Shown: positions 8,003 to 34,783 of the stretch, one piece after another
Layout of the letters: each line of letters opens with the position of its first letter
How positions within the stretch are numbered: the stretch's first letter is position 1
IMG/VR virus record: IMGVR_UViG_3300004807_000067
Span: 1-35,221 of that record
From: a virus
DNA length: 35,221 nt
Direction: 5' to 3' (one strand)
Notes under the pieces: generated by a model
What the model was told of the DNA's origin: nothing
The model's input: the letters and a program-made list of their open reading frames with translations, nothing else
Database searches by the model: none
Position numbers and translations under genes: made by a program

Positions 8003-10227
8003 TACGAGACGCCCGCGCCGCTGATTGCCCAGACAGTCGATGACACCTTGACCAGCGTGGCGAGGCCGTACTGGGCCAGCGTGCGGCTGCCGGTATTGGC
8101 CGTGCCGGCCTGCCGCAGCGTGTCCGTAGTGATCGAGATCGTCTGGTTCGAGCCGCTGTTGTTGAAGACAACGACGGTCGCGCCAACTGGGAACGCCACC
8201 GAACCGTTGGCAGGGATAATCACGCCGCCGGTGGTGATCGAGATGTGCTTGCCCATGTCGGTGAGGGCAAGCGTGTAGGACGCAGTCTGAGAGTTCTGCG
8301 GCATGCCCTTGTAACCCACGGCGTCAGCCAGTGAGGACGAGGTGATCGAGCCGGAGGAGGCCACAATGAAAAGGCCGCCGCCGACATCGAACTTGCCGCC
8401 CGGATTGTTGGTTCCGATGCCGAGGTTGCCTGTGGCAGTCAGGCGCATCAATTCGGTCGGCGTGGCGGTCCCAAGGAACGTCAGGTCGCCGTAGGAGTAC
8501 AGCCTGCCAATAAACGTCGAACCATTCCAGTAGTGGCCAATACTGGCCACTTCGGTCGTGCTATAGAAGCTGGAAAACTTCGCGCCGTCGTTGGTGGCAG
8601 CGTTCGAGTTGGAGACTGCGGCCGTGGTGACACCCGTGGCGTTCTTGACGGCAGCGAGAAGGCCGAAGGTGCTCGGCGACGAGGTGCCAATGCCGACGTT
8701 GCCGCTGGAGTCAACGCGCATGCGCTCGGAGCCATTGGTATACCAGATGGCGGGGTTCGCGCCGTAAACATAAGTGATGTAGCCAGTTCCGCTACCCACT
8801 GCCGCCGCTGCGTCCCCAATAAACCAAGTGGCCGAGCCGTTCTGCTGGCCTTGAATCGCGCCGCCATTTGCAGCGTTGTTCGTCGCGTTGATGATAAAGG
8901 TGGTGTTACTGGCGGCCGTGCCGCCGACCCCAAGGCGCATGCCCGCGCCAGCCACATCCAGCTTGTAACTGGGCGAAGTCGTCCCAATTCCGACATTGCC
9001 GCCAGAAGTAACGCGAAGATTTTCATTAGAGCCTGTGACAACGCGCCAGTCGTTGCCCACAGAGCCAATGTAAAGCGAGCCGGCCGTGGTGCCTGCGTCT
9101 TCCATGTAGAATGCGTTAAGGGCACCGCTAGTCTTCACGCGACCGGAAATAGTTCCGGTCGCCGACACATCCAGCCTATAGCTGGGCGAACTCGTCCCGA
9201 TGCCGACATTGGTGCCGTCATCATAGACCACGGACTGAGCCAGCGCCGAGGTACCTGCACCTTTGTACAGGTAGTTCGAGGTCAAGGTCGTAAGGCCGGT
9301 GCCCCCATTGGCCACAGCCAAGGTGCCCGCAAGGGTGATCGCGCCGGATGTAGCCGACGAAGGGGTCAGGCCAGTCGTGCCGCCGCTGAACGTGGTGACG
9401 GCGATGCTCGAAAGCGTGGACCAAGTCGGAGCCGCGCTCGTGTTCCCGACCAGCACCTGACCGGTGGTACCAACCGACACCGAGGACAGGGCCGAAATAC
9501 CGTTACCAAGCAGAAGGCCGTTGGCGGCAAGCGTTGTGGCGCCGGTGCCGCCATTCGCCACATTCAGCGTGCCCGACATTGTCAGCGTGCCGCTGGTGGT
9601 GATCGCGCCACCGGTAAACGTCATGCCGGTCGTGCCGCCAGACGCATTGACCGAGGTGACGGTGCCGCCCGAAGAGGTGGCCGCGATGGTGATCCCGCCC
9701 GCGCTGTTTGTGATGGTGATGCCGCTGCCCTGAGTCAGGGTAGCGAGCGTGAAGCCCGAGCCGTTCCCAATCAGCAACTGGCCGTTGGTAGCCGCCGTAC
9801 CAGTGCCAGTGCCGCCATTCGAGACGCTCAGCGTGCCAGTGATACCGGTCGAGAGCGGCAAGCCGGTCGCGTTGGTCAGGACGGCGGCCGAGGGCGTGCC
9901 CAGCGCGGGTGTCACAAGCGTCGGCGAGGTAGCCAGCACCACAGCTCCCGAGCCCGTGGTCGAGGCGTTCGAGATGGCCGTGATCTGGCCACGCGCGTTC
10001 ACGGTGAAGTTCGGGACGGTGTAGGATCCCGCGGTCACGCCGGTGTTGGTGATGCTGAACTGGGTGCCGGACAGCGTCAGCCCCGGACCGGCCGTGTAGG
10101 ACGCAATGAACAGCGAGAGCTGGGAAACTGTCATGCGGCTCGAAGTACCGCTCTGAACAACTTCCATCATCTCCGTGCCGTTCAAAGAAATGACAGGAGG
10201 CAGATTGGGGATTGTGATGTTCGCCAT
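8002..10227 (-). CDS. Long tail fibre protein with tandem beta repeats
   Basis: The 741-residue protein begins ANITIPNLPPVISLNGTEMM followed by VVQSGTSSRMTVSQLSLFIA, a phage-fibre N-terminal block that probably attaches to the tail. Next come repeats of the type VANGGTGxTTLxxNxLLxGN (for example at about 135-160, 220-245 and 305-330). Then there are repeats of NVGIGTSSPSYRLDV and NVGIGTTSPSYKLDVAG, a motif widespread in trimeric fibre shafts. The C-terminus (TDMGKHISITTGGVIIPANG to the end) is a beta-rich tip rather than the auto-cleaving S74 peptidase domain often found after VGIGT repeats. The downstream gene is the glycine-rich adhesin, so fibre and tip are encoded together. Confidence 0.8.
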   Translation of the reverse strand: MANITIPNLPPVISLNGTEMMEVVQSGTSSRMTVSQLSLFIASYTAGPGLTLSGTQFSITNTGVTAGSYTVPNFTVNARGQITAISNASTTGSGAVVLATSPTLVTPALGTPSAAVLTNATGLPLSTGITGTLSVSNGGTGTGTAATNGQLLIGNGSGFTLATLTQGSGITITNSAGGITIAATSSGGTVTSVNASGGTTGMTFTGGAITTSGTLTMSGTLNVANGGTGATTLAANGLLLGNGISALSSVSVGTTGQVLVGNTSAAPTWSTLSSIAVTTFSGGTTGLTPSSATSGAITLAGTLAVANGGTGLTTLTSNYLYKGAGTSALAQSVVYDDGTNVGIGTSSPSYRLDVSATGTISGRVKTSGALNAFYMEDAGTTAGSLYIGSVGNDWRVVTGSNENLRVTSGGNVGIGTTSPSYKLDVAGAGMRLGVGGTAASNTTFIINATNNAANGGAIQGQQNGSATWFIGDAAAAVGSGTGYITYVYGANPAIWYTNGSERMRVDSSGNVGIGTSSPSTFGLLAAVKNATGVTTAAVSNSNAATNDGAKFSSFYSTTEVASIGHYWNGSTFIGRLYSYGDLTFLGTATPTELMRLTATGNLGIGTNNPGGKFDVGGGLFIVASSGSITSSSLADAVGYKGMPQNSQTASYTLALTDMGKHISITTGGVIIPANGSVAFPVGATVVVFNNSGSNQTISITTDTLRQAGTANTGSRTLAQYGLATLVKVSSTVWAISGAGVS

Positions 10228-20260: not shown

Positions 20261-20653
20261 TTACCAAACGGCGTCAGGGGCGGGGACTCGCATGTTGATC
20301 GAGGTGTCCTTGACCATCCGGCAGGGCACGCCATTGATGGTAATGGCCCAGCCATCAGACGGCCGGTAGACCACCCAATCGTTCACGTTGATGTCGAAGT
20401 CGGCGAACCACTCGGGGTTCTCTTCCTTGAAGGCGACAGGCCCCTTCTTGAGGACGAGGGCGGCCTTCGACTGATACCGGTCTTCGTCGCGGTAGTTGTC
20501 GGGGAGGACGATGCCCGACTTGGTCTTTTCGGGGCGGATGTAGATGGCGACGAGAACCTGATTGTTCGCAATCGCAAAATCCTCGAGGCTCCCGACCTTG
20601 TCCCAGATTTGCTTCTTCGGATCCGTTTCATGATCCATAATCATATGAGGCAC
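20261..20653 (-). CDS. GroES-like co-chaperonin
   Basis: The 130-residue protein resembles Cpn10. Residues 30-40 (NNQVLVAIYIR) match the first strand. Residues 43-55 (TKSGIVLPDN) fit the mobile loop, whose GIVL contacts the GroEL apical domain. QSKAALVLKKGPVAF corresponds to the strand carrying 'GxVxxVGxG', and NDWVVYRPSDGWAITINGVP to the 'GDxVxF...I.G' region. The N-terminus is 15-20 residues longer than in GroES. The frame opens at a GTG (20651-20653) with AGGAG six bases upstream. T4 gp31 and similar phage proteins replace host GroES so that the coat protein can fold in the GroEL cage; the place of this gene among head genes supports the same job. No GroEL gene is in the window. Confidence 0.75.
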   Translation of the reverse strand: MPHMIMDHETDPKKQIWDKVGSLEDFAIANNQVLVAIYIRPEKTKSGIVLPDNYRDEDRYQSKAALVLKKGPVAFKEENPEWFADFDINVNDWVVYRPSDGWAITINGVPCRMVKDTSINMRVPAPDAVW

Positions 20654-30034: not shown

Positions 30035-31759
30035 TCACGCCGGATATAGCGGCACCGGCCCCTTGCCGGGGTACACCTTCAGCGACTCAAGTTCCTCCAT
30101 TCGTTCCGCGGTGCGGGTCAGAAGCCCCAGATCGCGCAAGTGTCGGATCGACATGCTCACAGTATCGACCAAGTCGTCGTGCTTCCCCTTCGGGAACATC
30201 GCGACCTGATTGATGACTTCCTGCGCCCACGAATAGTCAGGCGCAAAGATCAAACCCTCTGCAAAAAGATGCTGAATAGAAATGAGGCGCGATAGCTTGT
30301 CCATACTCTTCGGATCGGACAACTGAACAGCCCAGCTTGCGCTGCTATACAGTCGCCGCATTTCCTGCGACACAGAAATACCCGCGGCCTTATTTTCAAT
30401 CAGCAGCTTATCTACACGCAAACGCCGGCAGGTGTCGGCCACCTTCTCGATCAGTTGGTGAAACTCGAGCCGCTCCTGCCACGCGTGCATCAGCATCAGC
30501 TTCGGCGAGCCCTCAACGTAGGTGCGCTCGACCTGTCTGGCCCCCGATCCCTTCATAAAGGACCGGATCTCCTGCGCCTTGAAGTCTTCGGTGAACACAC
30601 CCCAGACGGTCAAGGCCGAGAAGTCATTGGAATTGACGGTGGTGTAGGCGGTATCGAGGGATGCCAAGATGAAATCCATCCCCGGATAGGCCTTGTGCTC
30701 CCACAGGTTCCACCACTCCTGCTTGATCACGCCGCCGCCCGGCGGGTCGGGGCGCTGCTGCAACTGGCCGGCGGCGCCATACGGCCCCAGCACGCGCTCC
30801 AGACGGGCCACTTCCTTCTCGCCGAACCGCTCATCCCACAGCAGTTCGCCCTGCCGCTCCTTCAGAGCCACCTCGGCCTTGTGCGAGACAGGCTCACGGA
30901 CCCCTGTCTCACCGATCTTGACCAGCGGCTCTCCGTCGTCGTCGCAGCCGCGGGGGTCTTCCCAACCGATGACCGTCGAGCAGTGGCGCTCCCACTCGTA
31001 CCGCATCGGCAGCACAAGGTGGGTCCACTCGCCCTCGGTGTCGTTGTCGAGGATGTGGCCGGTCAAGTCGTTCTCGGCCAGCCTCTGCTGGATCACGATC
31101 ATCGCGCCGGTCTTCTGGTCGTTGAGGCGGGTGCTCATCGTCCCGTCCCACCAGTCAATCGTGGACTGGATGTTGGCCTCCGAGAAGGCCTCATTCGCCG
31201 CGTTCGGGTCGTCCACAATGATGATCGAGCCGCCCTCGCCGGTGATCTTCGCATCGACCGAGGTGATCAGGCGCTCGCCGCGCTGATCGTTCAGGAAGCG
31301 CCCCTTGGTGTTCTGGTCGGACGTCAGCTTGAAGCGGTCGCCCCAATACCGCTGGTACCACGGGCTCTCGATCAGTCGGCGGCACTTCACGGAGTCGCGC
31401 ATCGCCAGAGACGAACCGTATGAGGCGCAGAGGAACTGGACTTGAGGCCCCGAGGTGGCCGACCGTTCCGTCTGCGCCCACGTCCAAGCCGGGAAGGCCA
31501 CAGACGTGATCGATGACTTGCCCATACGCGGAGGGATGTTGATCACCAGCCGCTTGATGTCGCCATCGACCACGGCCTGCAGGTGCTCGGCCACAGCCTC
31601 AATCGGCCAGCCGTCCTTCCACGGCGAGGCGTCAATGTGCTGCCACGCGCCGACCAGAAAGTCATAGAGGCTGTTCTCGTAATCGTACCGCTCGAGAAGC
31701 CGAAGCTGCTCGCTCGGGTCGATCAGAACCCCACCCCCAATGTCGATCAACCGGCTCAT
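30035..31759 (-). CDS. terL: Terminase large subunit (packaging ATPase and nuclease)
   Basis: The 574-residue protein has an ATPase domain: NIPPRMGKSS at about 74-83 is the Walker A loop, IIIVDDP at 179-185 is Walker B, and MIVIQQRLAENDLTGH at about 210-225 is a coupling-motif-like stretch. The C-terminal nuclease has LASLDTAY (D369), LLIENK (E455) and KHDDLVDT (D528, D529, D532), the acidic residues expected of the RNase H-like fold. The enzyme pumps the genome into the head through the portal and cuts it. The start ATG overlaps the stop of the small subunit (ATGA). Length and motif spacing are normal. Confidence 0.95.
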   Translation of the reverse strand: MSRLIDIGGGVLIDPSEQLRLLERYDYENSLYDFLVGAWQHIDASPWKDGWPIEAVAEHLQAVVDGDIKRLVINIPPRMGKSSITSVAFPAWTWAQTERSATSGPQVQFLCASYGSSLAMRDSVKCRRLIESPWYQRYWGDRFKLTSDQNTKGRFLNDQRGERLITSVDAKITGEGGSIIIVDDPNAANEAFSEANIQSTIDWWDGTMSTRLNDQKTGAMIVIQQRLAENDLTGHILDNDTEGEWTHLVLPMRYEWERHCSTVIGWEDPRGCDDDGEPLVKIGETGVREPVSHKAEVALKERQGELLWDERFGEKEVARLERVLGPYGAAGQLQQRPDPPGGGVIKQEWWNLWEHKAYPGMDFILASLDTAYTTVNSNDFSALTVWGVFTEDFKAQEIRSFMKGSGARQVERTYVEGSPKLMLMHAWQERLEFHQLIEKVADTCRRLRVDKLLIENKAAGISVSQEMRRLYSSASWAVQLSDPKSMDKLSRLISIQHLFAEGLIFAPDYSWAQEVINQVAMFPKGKHDDLVDTVSMSIRHLRDLGLLTRTAERMEELESLKVYPGKGPVPLYPA

Positions 31760-32361
31760 TCGTCGTCGATCTCTTCGACTTCCGCCTCGTCGGTCCCGTC
31801 CGAAATCATCGTGTAGTCAGCCTCCGGAACCTGAGACTGCCGATAGCCGCTGGCCTCGTCGATGGCCTCGCGCAGCACGCCGGACACCGCCTCGCGCAGC
31901 GCGTAACGCTGCTCGTCGGTCAACTGGTAAGGGTCGAGCGTGGTCGTCTGCTGAGGGTCAATCGGCCGACCGTCCTTGCCCAGAAACTGGATCTGCTGCT
32001 TCTCGCTGAACACCTCGGGCATCAGCCGGCTCAGCATGAACTTGCCGGCCACGACAGACTGCTTGTGCCCCGGATCCTGCGCGATGACGGCCATGTTCGA
32101 GGCGATTTTCGTCATCAGGGACGACGTGCCGGCCTGCATCTCTTCGCCGTAATACTTCTCGACCGTGGGCAGGCTCACCCCGACCAGCTTGGCCACCTGA
32201 TCCTTGCGCAGGCCACCAGCGCGCAGGCGCTCGACCATCGCGGCCGTCACGTCGTCGTATTCGTGCGCAGGCGTAGGGAGCGGAATAACCCCGCCGTCAG
32301 GGCGCATGCGCGCCAACGGGCTCTTCGAGAGTCTCGGCTCGGCTGGTGGTTTTTTGGGCAT
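31756..32361 (-). CDS. terS: Terminase small subunit (DNA recognition)
   Basis: The 201-residue protein has a helix-turn-helix-like segment at about 48-72 (GGLRKDQVAKLVGVSLPTVE, then KYYGEEM), a helical centre (LMTKIASNMAVIAQDPGHKQ, then SVVAGKFMLSRLMP) and an acidic tail (TDEAEVEEIDDE). The N-terminus is basic. Small terminases bind the packaging start site and stimulate the large subunit. Identity rests on the HTH, the size and the ATGA overlap with the large subunit, since small terminases are poorly conserved. The Shine-Dalgarno sequence is weak (GAGAG), so expression may be modest. Confidence 0.75.
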   Translation of the reverse strand: MPKKPPAEPRLSKSPLARMRPDGGVIPLPTPAHEYDDVTAAMVERLRAGGLRKDQVAKLVGVSLPTVEKYYGEEMQAGTSSLMTKIASNMAVIAQDPGHKQSVVAGKFMLSRLMPEVFSEKQQIQFLGKDGRPIDPQQTTTLDPYQLTDEQRYALREAVSGVLREAIDEASGYRQSQVPEADYTMISDGTDEAEVEEIDDE

Positions 32362-32456: not shown

Positions 32457-32532
32457 TGGTGCTTCAGGAGGGAATCGAACCCCCTGTCTCCGGGTTACAA
32501 ATCCGGCGCATCGCCAGCAATGCTTCTGAAGC
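32457..32532 (-). tRNA. tRNA-Thr (anticodon UGU), CCA encoded
   Basis: The 76-base minus-strand cloverleaf has a perfect seven-base acceptor stem (GCTTCAG with CTGAAGC), D stem GCAT/ATGC with GG in the loop, anticodon loop TTTGTAA (TGT at 34-36), a five-base variable loop and T arm GGGGG/CCCTC with loop TTCGATT. Position 31-39 is A-C, so the anticodon stem has four pairs. Position 8 is A and position 14 is T, a swap of the usual U8-A14. The gene begins at the base after the HNH stop codon and reads ACA codons, rare in GC-rich DNA. Confidence 0.9.
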
Positions 32533-32925
32533 CTAAAAACTCTTTTTCTCGGCGTACCGCACCCTTCTCTGGTGACGGCCGTTACCCCTATTGCGGATTT
32601 TGTACGTATCCGTCTGCGAGTGGCAGTTCGGGCATAGTATCAATAGGTTGATAAGGTTGTTATTGTCCCCGTTCCCGTCAATGTGCTCAAGCTCGAATGT
32701 CAGCGCCTTGCCGTTCCATCCTTCAATGCCGCACTCTTGACATTGCCTCCCGCGAGTGTCCAAAAGGTACCGCCTGACGGAGGCATGGCTTGCTGTTCCG
32801 CAAGTGACTTTCTGCGCTCTGGTGTGCGCATGCTGGCACTTGTTCGAACAATACTTGCCCATCGTGTTCACCCGAGTAACTGTGACTCCGCAGTTTAGGC
32901 ATGGGTACGTTTTGTGCGTGGGCAT
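32533..32925 (-). CDS. HNH endonuclease
   Basis: The 130-residue protein has two zinc-ribbon-like pairs at the N-terminus (C9/C12 and C26/C30). An HNH domain follows: CQEC (C62/C65), FELEHIDGNGDNNN (H81, D83, N88-90) and CPNCHSQT (C98/C101, H102). The basic tail NRGNGRHQRRVRYAEKKSF fits DNA binding. Such free-standing HNH enzymes in phages are often homing endonucleases, or they assist cos cleavage when placed near terminase. It is close to terS, so both readings stand. GAGGA lies six bases before the ATG. The stop codon is directly followed by base 1 of tRNA-Thr, an unusual fusion of coding and tRNA transcripts. Confidence 0.85.
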   Translation of the reverse strand: MPTHKTYPCLNCGVTVTRVNTMGKYCSNKCQHAHTRAQKVTCGTASHASVRRYLLDTRGRQCQECGIEGWNGKALTFELEHIDGNGDNNNLINLLILCPNCHSQTDTYKIRNRGNGRHQRRVRYAEKKSF

Positions 32926-33442: not shown

Positions 33443-33518
33443 TGGTCTGGGTGACAGGACTTGAACCTACAACCTCCTGCTCCCAAGGCAGGCGCTCTAC
33501 CACTTGAGCTACACCCAG
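33443..33518 (-). tRNA. tRNA-Pro (anticodon UGG), CCA encoded
   Basis: A 76-base cloverleaf with acceptor stem CTGGGTG/CACCCAG, T8 and A9, D arm GCTC/GAGC, anticodon stem CCTGC/GCAGG with loop CTTGGGA (TGG at 34-36), five-base variable loop, T loop TTCAAGT and an encoded CCA. The C1-G72 pair and A73 are typical of bacterial tRNA-Pro. It reads CCA codons, rare in GC-rich genomes, and is the first element of the leftward block. Confidence 0.95.
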
Positions 33519-33717: not shown

Positions 33718-33833
33718 ATACCCCCACCCCGCCCTCACAGTCAATTGGGGGTATACCCCCTTCGGCGGATAGGCATGTTTTTCCTAGGAAAAATATACCC
33801 CACCCCCGTTTTGCTCCAGTTTTTAGGGGGTAT
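33718..33833. repeat. ATACCCCC / GGGGGTAT motif cluster
   Basis: Copies occur at 33718-33725 (ATACCCCC), 33747-33754 (GGGGGTAT), 33753-33760 (ATACCCCC), 33795-33801 (ATACCCC) and 33826-33833 (GGGGGTAT). The middle pair forms a perfect 14-bp palindrome. Two copies continue as ACCCC or ACCCCC. The spacing is irregular, so these look like protein-binding sites (iteron or operator type). Confidence 0.6.
33778..33793. repeat. 16-bp perfect palindrome
   Basis: TTTTTCCTAGGAAAAA is a perfect palindrome lying between copies of the ATACCCCC motif. It is a plausible dimer-binding site. Confidence 0.6.
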
Positions 33834-33843
33834 GTGGGTTTGT

Positions 33844-33872
33844 GGCACCGGCCCCTACGGTGCCTTTTGTTT
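33844..33872 (+). terminator. Rho-independent terminator, plus strand
   Basis: GGCACCG pairs with CGGTGCC over a seven-base loop and is followed by TTTTGTTT on the plus strand. No plus-strand gene precedes it here, so it either ends a short RNA starting to its left or blocks rightward readthrough toward the control region. Confidence 0.65.
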
Positions 33873-33883
33873 CCTGTTGTCAA

Positions 33884-33916
33884 GGGGGGTGCCACCCCCC
33901 AATGCAAGTTTTTTTT
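33884..33916 (+). terminator. Second terminator-like hairpin with distant T8
   Basis: GGGGGGT pairs with ACCCCCC across three bases; eight bases later come eight T residues. The gap between stem and T tract makes this weak as a terminator, and the T run may instead belong to the AT-rich origin DNA. Confidence 0.35.
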
Positions 33917-33922
33917 ATTTAG

Positions 33923-33931
33923 TTATCCACA
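33923..33931 (+). promoter_or_regulatory. Consensus DnaA box
   Basis: TTATCCACA matches the bacterial DnaA consensus exactly. It lies in AT-rich DNA with a T8 run on the left and a T7 run at about 33963-33969, in an otherwise GC-rich genome. This would fit a replication origin that uses host DnaA; a single box is only modest support. Confidence 0.5.
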
Positions 33932-34013
33932 AAAAGTTAACGCAGCAACTTGTCAAGGAAAATTTTTTTACTGTCAGCGCGCAGAGTATTACTTGAGCGA
34001 TACTTAGTGCACG

Positions 34014-34032
34014 CTCGTCAATACTTGACGAG
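34014..34032. promoter_or_regulatory. Operator-like inverted repeat
   Basis: CTCGTCAATACTTGACGAG has perfect 8-bp arms and a three-base centre, typical for a dimeric repressor site. A related half-site, ATTACTTGAGCG, lies at about 33989-34000. Confidence 0.5.
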
Positions 34033-34045
34033 GCAGCCGCGCCGT

Positions 34046-34233
34046 CGAGCCTGACAGCCTGCGGCTGACGGGCGCGTCGGCGCGGTGGCTGGGGGAGCTG
34101 CGTCCTCGAGCCAGCCTGCCGCAGGCTGTCAGGCTCGAGGACGCAGGCGCAGAGGGCGCGGCGGCTGGGGGAGCTGCGCCCTCGAGCCAGCCTGCCGCAG
34201 GCTGTCAGGCTCGAGGACGCAGGCGCGGAGGGC
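34046..34233. repeat. GC-rich tandem hairpin repeat with inverted partial copy
   Basis: Two 76-base units (34082-34157 and 34158-34233) differ at only three positions. Each contains a long hairpin: in the first, a 15-bp outer stem (34098-34112 with 34132-34146) and a 7-bp inner stem (AGCCTGC/GCAGGCT), interrupted by a four-base bulge. In the second unit one outer pair is lost. A 20-base piece (34046-34065) is the exact reverse complement of 34118-34137 and 34194-34213. A degenerate beginning of a third unit follows at 34234. Confidence 0.85.
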
Positions 34234-34397
34234 GCGGCGGCAGGGCGGCTCAGAGGCCCGTACAGCGCGTCGGCCTGCCGTCCGCAGCATAGCCCCACGG
34301 CAATCGATCTTCGCGCTGTAGGGCGCGTTTCCGGGGCGAGAAAAGGCTATCTAAGGCTGATGTTGAGTGGGCGGCCACCAACCGACAGCCCTTCCGC

Positions 34398-34525: not shown

Positions 34526-34783
34526 ATGACCGAAGCGACCTTCACCTACGAGAACGCCAACAACGCCAAGTTCGAAACCCTGCGCGACGTCCGCGAAGCC
34601 CTCTTCTGCATCCGCGCCCTGACGTCGGCTCTCTCCGACCGCCTGTACGACGAGCTCCGTGAGCGCAAGCTGCAGGCTGGCACCGCCGAGTACGAGCAGT
34701 TCCGCCAGATCCAGAAGCTGATCGACGACAAGTGCTGGCTGGCTGCGCGCGAAGCCTGCCTGCTGCTCGAAGACTTCGTCTGA
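34526..34783 (+). CDS. Small rightward protein, unknown function
   Basis: An 85-residue helical, charged protein starting MTEATFTYENANNAKFETLR, with RDVREALFCIRALTSALSDR, then DELRERKLQAGTAEYEQFRQ and a C-terminal EACLLLEDFV. AGGAG lies six bases before the ATG, a strong site. It is the first gene of the rightward unit and is followed 43 bases later by the next gene. No family was recognised; early small proteins in phages often act on host regulators, which is only a guess here. Confidence 0.7.
   Translation: MTEATFTYENANNAKFETLRDVREALFCIRALTSALSDRLYDELRERKLQAGTAEYEQFRQIQKLIDDKCWLAAREACLLLEDFV

Follow-up and report, generated by a model that had tools for sequence, protein, structure and literature searches.

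A family-conserved array of strand-specific mini-hairpins in the control region upstream of the terminase genes of an environmental phage

We describe a locus of small hairpins that, judged by sequence comparison, is real and conserved across a phage family. The window, by which we mean the whole stretch of 35,221 nucleotides analysed here (positions 1 to 35,221 of IMGVR_UViG_3300004807_000067), is part of a circularly closed freshwater phage genome of 60,193 bp, and the hairpins lie in its control region, upstream of the terminase genes. The array itself, its position, its strand, the covariation of its stems and the rule followed by its loops are the demonstrated part of the explanation that we propose. 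As for the function of the array, we tentatively favour a structural hairpin site that would act at the DNA level and would most likely be linked to replication start.

The genome closes to 60,193 bp because the G001 assembly (60,313 bases) overlaps itself by 120 bases, corresponding to window 34012-34131; the break of this assembly falls inside the hairpin array. Four further assemblies, G001 among them, contain the window phage together with the hairpin element and are 99.95-100% identical across shared stretches, and in a fifth (L010/L016) terS and terL are 100% identical and the contig stops short of the element. When terS and the 85-aa gene described below were used as search probes, no phage was recovered beyond the window phage. 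The hairpin site sits inside a 1.27-kb non-coding gap, with the leftward terS/terL operon on one side and a rightward operon of small genes on the other, the operons and coding strands being those given by our own simple gene caller. The rightward operon starts with an 85-aa gene of unknown function (34526..34783, plus strand). The leftward genes include the putative small terminase subunit gene terS (31756..32361, minus strand), which lies downstream of the control region and is assigned from its position beside terL and its homology to the TerS-position proteins of relatives, the large terminase subunit gene terL (30035..31759, minus strand), which was the anchor for finding relatives, and the portal and major head protein genes. 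Elsewhere in the genome are genes for a 693-aa primase/helicase-like protein and for a RuvC-like resolvase, and no RNA polymerase or replicative DNA polymerase was recognised among the phage proteins searched. Two tRNA genes are found on the minus strand of the window, tRNA-Pro(TGG) within the control region (33443-33518) and tRNA-Thr(TGT) (32457-32532), which adjoins an HNH endonuclease gene (32533-32925); no tRNA was present at the equivalent position in the relatives scanned. A GroES-like co-chaperonin gene (20261-20653, minus strand) is located amid the structural genes.

The most conspicuous part of the array is a tandem repeat. The preliminary description had claimed two near-identical 76-base units, each carrying a hairpin, and both claims are borne out. 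Unit 1 (34079..34154, plus strand) and unit 2 (34155..34230, plus strand) follow each other at a spacing of 76 and are identical at 73/76 positions (96%), with 3 differences, and each forms a hairpin whose 23-nt arms are separated by a 3-nt gap. In unit 1 the hairpin spans 34098-34146, its arms are 87% complementary and it encloses the inner palindrome CAGCCTG-CCG-CAGGCTG (34112-34128); the corresponding hairpin of unit 2 spans 34174-34222 (83% complementary), with the inner palindrome at 34188-34204. TRF reports a period of 76 and 2.2 copies over 34079-34245, including a partial third direct repeat that extends from the end of unit 2 to 34245. With RNA parameters, the minimum free energies of the 76-bp units range from -42.6 to -46.1 kcal/mol, and the strongest 80-nt fold in the 60-kb phage genome is located at 34081. 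Folding of both strands, as the preliminary description had proposed, placed three of the four unit strands and the third hairpin (see below) well below shuffled sequences; the minus strand of unit 1 reached z = -4.5 as RNA and -5.4 as DNA, folding with DNA parameters having been applied to unit 1 and to the third hairpin. The exception was the plus strand of unit 2, which as RNA is unexceptional for its composition (z = -0.5). The tandem units are confined to the window phage (the window and the four matching assemblies); no relative outside this phage species has them, not even L021 (TerL 75%). At the equivalent place, TRF finds no tandem array in L035 and only unrelated short repeats in L021, the clearest being an 18-bp duplication. 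The tandem is the window phage's own recent local expansion of its hairpin set.

It is the inverted copy to the left of the tandem that relatives share. This copy had been described as a 20-base exact match, and 34046-34065 is indeed the reverse complement of both 34118-34137 and 34194-34213. These 20 bases form the core of a third hairpin, inverted and diverged (34036..34086, minus strand), and 34039-34083 is 80-82% complementary to each 76-bp unit. The part conserved in relatives (34047..34074, minus strand) consists of the mini-hairpin CAGCC-GCA-GGCTG (34055-34067), which has a GNA loop and lies on the terS/terL sense strand, and its flanks. In the minus-strand reading, GTCAGCC-GCA-GGCTGTC, the third copy matches the first hairpin of relatives, and L021, the closest relative with this region, has GATCAGCC-GCA-GGCTGTC at this position. 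The idea that the repeat would be kept at the same place in relatives is thus correct for the inverted third copy at 34047-34074 and fails for the tandem 76-bp units. A further hairpin, overlooked in the preliminary description, is the perfect 8-bp hairpin CTCGTCAA-GTA-TTGACGAG (34014..34032, minus strand), which also has a GNA loop and is located on the same strand as the mini-hairpin of 34047-34074, about 38 bp apart; its sequence was not found in the relatives examined.

The relatives were gathered with TerL probes and comprise about 76 contigs, most of them 60-85% identical. Where a contig extends far enough upstream, a long non-coding region precedes terS, and in the L048/L043/L047-like, L053/L067-like and L054-like groups this region opens with one to three short hairpins, a pattern that L021 shows in a weaker form. 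The mini-hairpins of relatives occupy a place equivalent to that in the window, upstream of terS, and are always on the terS/terL sense strand. The array is not in every group, as other structures are found at the hairpin place in L022/L023 and in L035/L051/L058. A nucleotide search of the hairpin element against named phages and plasmids gave no match, and no description of it was found in the literature.

Several observations bear on selection. Across 18 elements, 97.2% of the pair counts were paired, and this value falls to 15-41% when the partner is shifted by 1-3 columns; hairpin 34014 was omitted from the counts because the first MAFFT alignment had displaced it by two columns. In the same elements, both sides had changed in 5/6 pairs, with no one-sided changes and no G-U, although these pair-change counts overstate the number of changes because related sequences are not independent events. 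A covariance model of these elements, applied to 632 kb of family and comparison sequence, produced strong matches in control regions alone, in every case on the terS/terL sense strand. When the model was built without the window and L021, 34047-34074 (minus strand) ranked first in the phage genome with a modest E-value of 0.027, followed weakly by the two tandem units, and L021 was missed. Moreover, the motif of the second (B-type) hairpin occurs in 19 stretches among 2.9 million IMG/VR viral contigs, all of them from this family and roughly 400-700 bp upstream of terS. Since position, strand and covariation hold family-wide, they indicate selection and argue against a parasitic repeat.

The loops of these hairpins follow a rule of their own. 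Loops of the form G...A are present in 16/43 distinct control hairpins, compared with 75/696 hairpins elsewhere, and the control loops are mostly GNA or GNNA with closing pairs that are mostly C-G. In PMC4686876, which cites Hirao 1994 and Yoshizawa 1997 for mini-hairpins of the d(GCGAAGC) type, GNA and GNNA loops closed by G-C are the rule for very stable DNA mini-hairpins. The likeness extends to the loop type, the mostly C-G closing, the presence of at least two G-C pairs and the freedom of N, and what is known as a chemical motif appears here as a family-conserved genomic array. The first hairpin, in the window and in relatives, and many second hairpins have such loops; unlike the described mini-hairpins, some loops here are AAA, as in the third hairpin of several relatives, and the larger hairpins of the tandem units have CGG/CCG loops, outside the rule.

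Could the array work instead as RNA? An RNA-level element would be part of the leftward (terS-sense) transcript, with the small early genes on one side and the terminase operon on the other, and could be a leader, a 3'-end protector, a processing site or a put-like antiterminator. We regard this, the main rival to our reading, as possible but somewhat unlikely. Without exception the array lies on the terS/terL sense strand, a terminator unit lies downstream in the same region, and an RNA role keeps some plausibility because many relatives have the array immediately behind a small sense-strand gene, starting just past its stop codon. The put RNA of phage HK022, a stem-loop pair in early leaders (PMC9378689), offers a precedent with two or more stem-loops in a phage operon control region; however, put is about 70 nt long and has bulged stems and non-canonical pairs (PMC9378689), whereas the stems here are short and perfect and their RNA is only putative. 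We favour the DNA level because G-U pairs are absent, the loops are not GNRA and the array lies between divergent genes, or operons, in the window and in L021. Specifically, G-U accounts for 0/105 pairs in the hairpin stems and 44/240 pairs in intrinsic-terminator stems of the same regions, an absence that is partly built in because the hairpin scan required perfect pairing, and the loops GTCA, GACA and GGTA fit GNNA rather than the RNA-type GNRA. TTGACA-like hexamers downstream of the array also speak against the RNA level, as do an Rfam search in which only two tRNAs were above threshold and the hairpin element was unmatched, and a consensus scan that found no sigma-70-type promoter.

A separate feature of the control regions is a small transcription unit, conserved between the hairpin array and terS. 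In L048 it lies about 1070-950 bp upstream of terL (locus coordinates roughly 8930-9060), and it is also found in L031, L035, L043, L050, L055, L058, L063, L090, L116 and L164. The unit consists, in order, of a promoter-like TTGCAC-N17-TATACA, UUGCUCCUU and a strong intrinsic terminator, whose stems differ among relatives and include G-U pairs. The ribosome-binding site AAGGAGCAA, to which UUGCUCCUU is complementary, is present 6 times in the complete genome G014, with ATG or GTG within 14 nt after 6/6, and the unit is a candidate phage small RNA directed against the phage's own translation starts. This unit is not evident in the window phage. On the plus strand of the window, 33844-33864 holds a terminator-like GGCACCGGCCCCTACGGTGCC-TTTTG, with TTTTGCTCCAG before it, possibly corresponding, on the plus strand, to the small RNA unit of relatives. 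The control region of the window also contains the palindrome GGGGGGTGCCACCCCCC followed by TTGACA on the minus strand (33884..33900), an arrangement with a similar counterpart in L022, and the palindrome GGGGGTATACCCCC (33747..33760); palindromes of the type G-run/TA/C-run recur in the control regions of relatives.

For a DNA-level structural site linked to replication start, we propose the following mechanism. The ancestral hairpin 34047-34074 (minus strand) would have been kept in the window phage, and its inverted copy would have grown into the two 76-bp tandem hairpins. The strand may be exposed by negative supercoiling, or when the AT-rich stretch next to the array opens, and the hairpins could then extrude. 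Once extruded, they would form a structural site for landing or loading, most probably in replication start (helicase/primase loading), and might also organise divergent promoters. The setting of the array in the window phage is consistent with this proposal: the 60-150 bp with the highest AT content and the lowest stability anywhere in the 60,193-bp genome are at 33897..34005, TTATCCACA (33923..33931, plus strand) is the only perfect DnaA box of this genome, and neither is more than about 150 bp away from the conserved hairpin. The earlier view of a cis-element in the control region beside a DnaA box is supported, with equivalents at the same place in relatives, and the phage family itself encodes a primase/helicase-like protein. 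The suggestion of an origin hairpin fares less evenly. It fits the only DnaA box and the AT maximum adjoining the array, but this pattern does not recur in the complete relative G014 or the near-complete G006, in which no DnaA box was found and the AT-richest stretch is elsewhere; GC-skew extremes are also away from the control region. A similar site is known from RSF1010, in which ssiA and ssiB (PMC4434180) are strand-specific hairpins of a replicon with its own primase/helicase-like replication protein. In contrast to the ssi sites, each a lone element of 40 nt that has a defined 5' tail and a 3' GTG (PMC4434180), there are one to three short hairpins here, and their sequence can be swapped alongside a nearly identical helicase. 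L058 and L048 are 99% identical in TerL, 91% in TerS and 92% in the helicase, but their hairpin arrays differ, and the GNA sequence can therefore not be a requirement of the helicase/primase. We had also considered that the hairpins are tied to TerS or to the helicase, and rejected it, as the hairpin sets swap independently of both. In the same control region of L022 and L023, about 1150-1060 bp upstream of terL, there are three direct repeats spaced by 45 bp, origin-like iterons that each hold a perfect DnaA box (TGTGGATAA); clusters of DnaA boxes at a spacing of about 11 or 22 bp are found upstream of terL in L070, L074, L075, L080 and L081.

It is quite unlikely that the hairpins are a REP-like or parasitic repeat, inserted and duplicated without any phage function. 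In favour of such a repeat, the tandem is of recent date and occurs in one phage only, and the 17-mer GTCAGCCGNAGGCTGWC core, found in 63 stretches of which many are unrelated, is not specific to the family and recurs in unrelated contigs in a GGGGGAGCTGTCAGCCGNAGGCTGACTGAGGGGG context (L120, L146). Like bacterial REP elements, the hairpins are GC-rich imperfect palindromes, and some REP-like repeats have an identical CAGCCGNAGGCTG core; unlike REP elements, they occupy one fixed locus per genome, with position, strand and covariation kept family-wide, and they are not dispersed in the species genomes searched. The scatter through host chromosomes that an ordinary REP-type element would show was not seen, as the 20-base core has two isolated matches in 84,980 species genomes; one of these matches, in an alphaproteobacterial MAG, falls where an apparent reading frame begins and is taken as coincidence. 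Among unrelated viral contigs, L120, L146, L148, L129, L131 and L142 carry REP-like hairpins of the GGGGGAGCTGTCAGCCGNAGGCTGACTGAGGGGG type with the same GNA mini-hairpin core, in several copies in some of them.

Positions next to terS are a common place for pac and cos sites, and the array lies beside terS in a large non-coding region. The packaging site that had been suggested is nevertheless disfavoured in both forms, and we consider a pac site recognised by the small terminase subunit highly unlikely. The GNA hairpins are kept when TerS is only 41-47% identical (L053, L054 and L067 against L048, L043 and L047; 41-44% against L048), and the hairpin sets are swapped at 91% TerS identity (L058 against L048); because hairpin type and TerS sequence vary independently, a TerS-specific pac is disfavoured. 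Furthermore, G001 and four relatives can each be closed to a circle, and the genes at which they break differ, so that there is no sign of a fixed (cos) end at the hairpin site. An N4-type promoter, at which a phage single-subunit RNA polymerase would read an extruded DNA hairpin, is barely plausible. The N4 early promoter hairpins (PMC4496689) have the same form, being small, with a 5-7-bp stem, a 3-nt loop and a sheared G-A type closing, in a phage control region, but N4 requires G at -8 and a purine in the middle of the loop (PMC4496689), whereas the middle base of the loops here is A, C or T and C usually takes the equivalent stem position. No gene for a polymerase was recognised either: the window's largest proteins gave no match to a polymerase family, and PF00940 has no match in 7 family genomes, a weak negative as the control genomes were silent too.

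Beyond its possible link to replication start, the array may, as we suggest with more reserve, represent a new phage control element, a strand-specific array of GNA/GNNA DNA mini-hairpins that would act as folded single-stranded or extruded DNA. Hairpin sets of such an element would swap between near-identical phages and expand by tandem duplication, as in the window. Among the kinds of element compared here, few natural DNA elements act as folded hairpins beyond the N4 promoters and the ssi sites. With covarying, loop-restricted mini-hairpins at one fixed position, the use of extruded DNA hairpins by phages becomes directly testable. Finally, the swapping of hairpin sets might mark compatibility between phages, an idea that can be tested in this environmental phage family.
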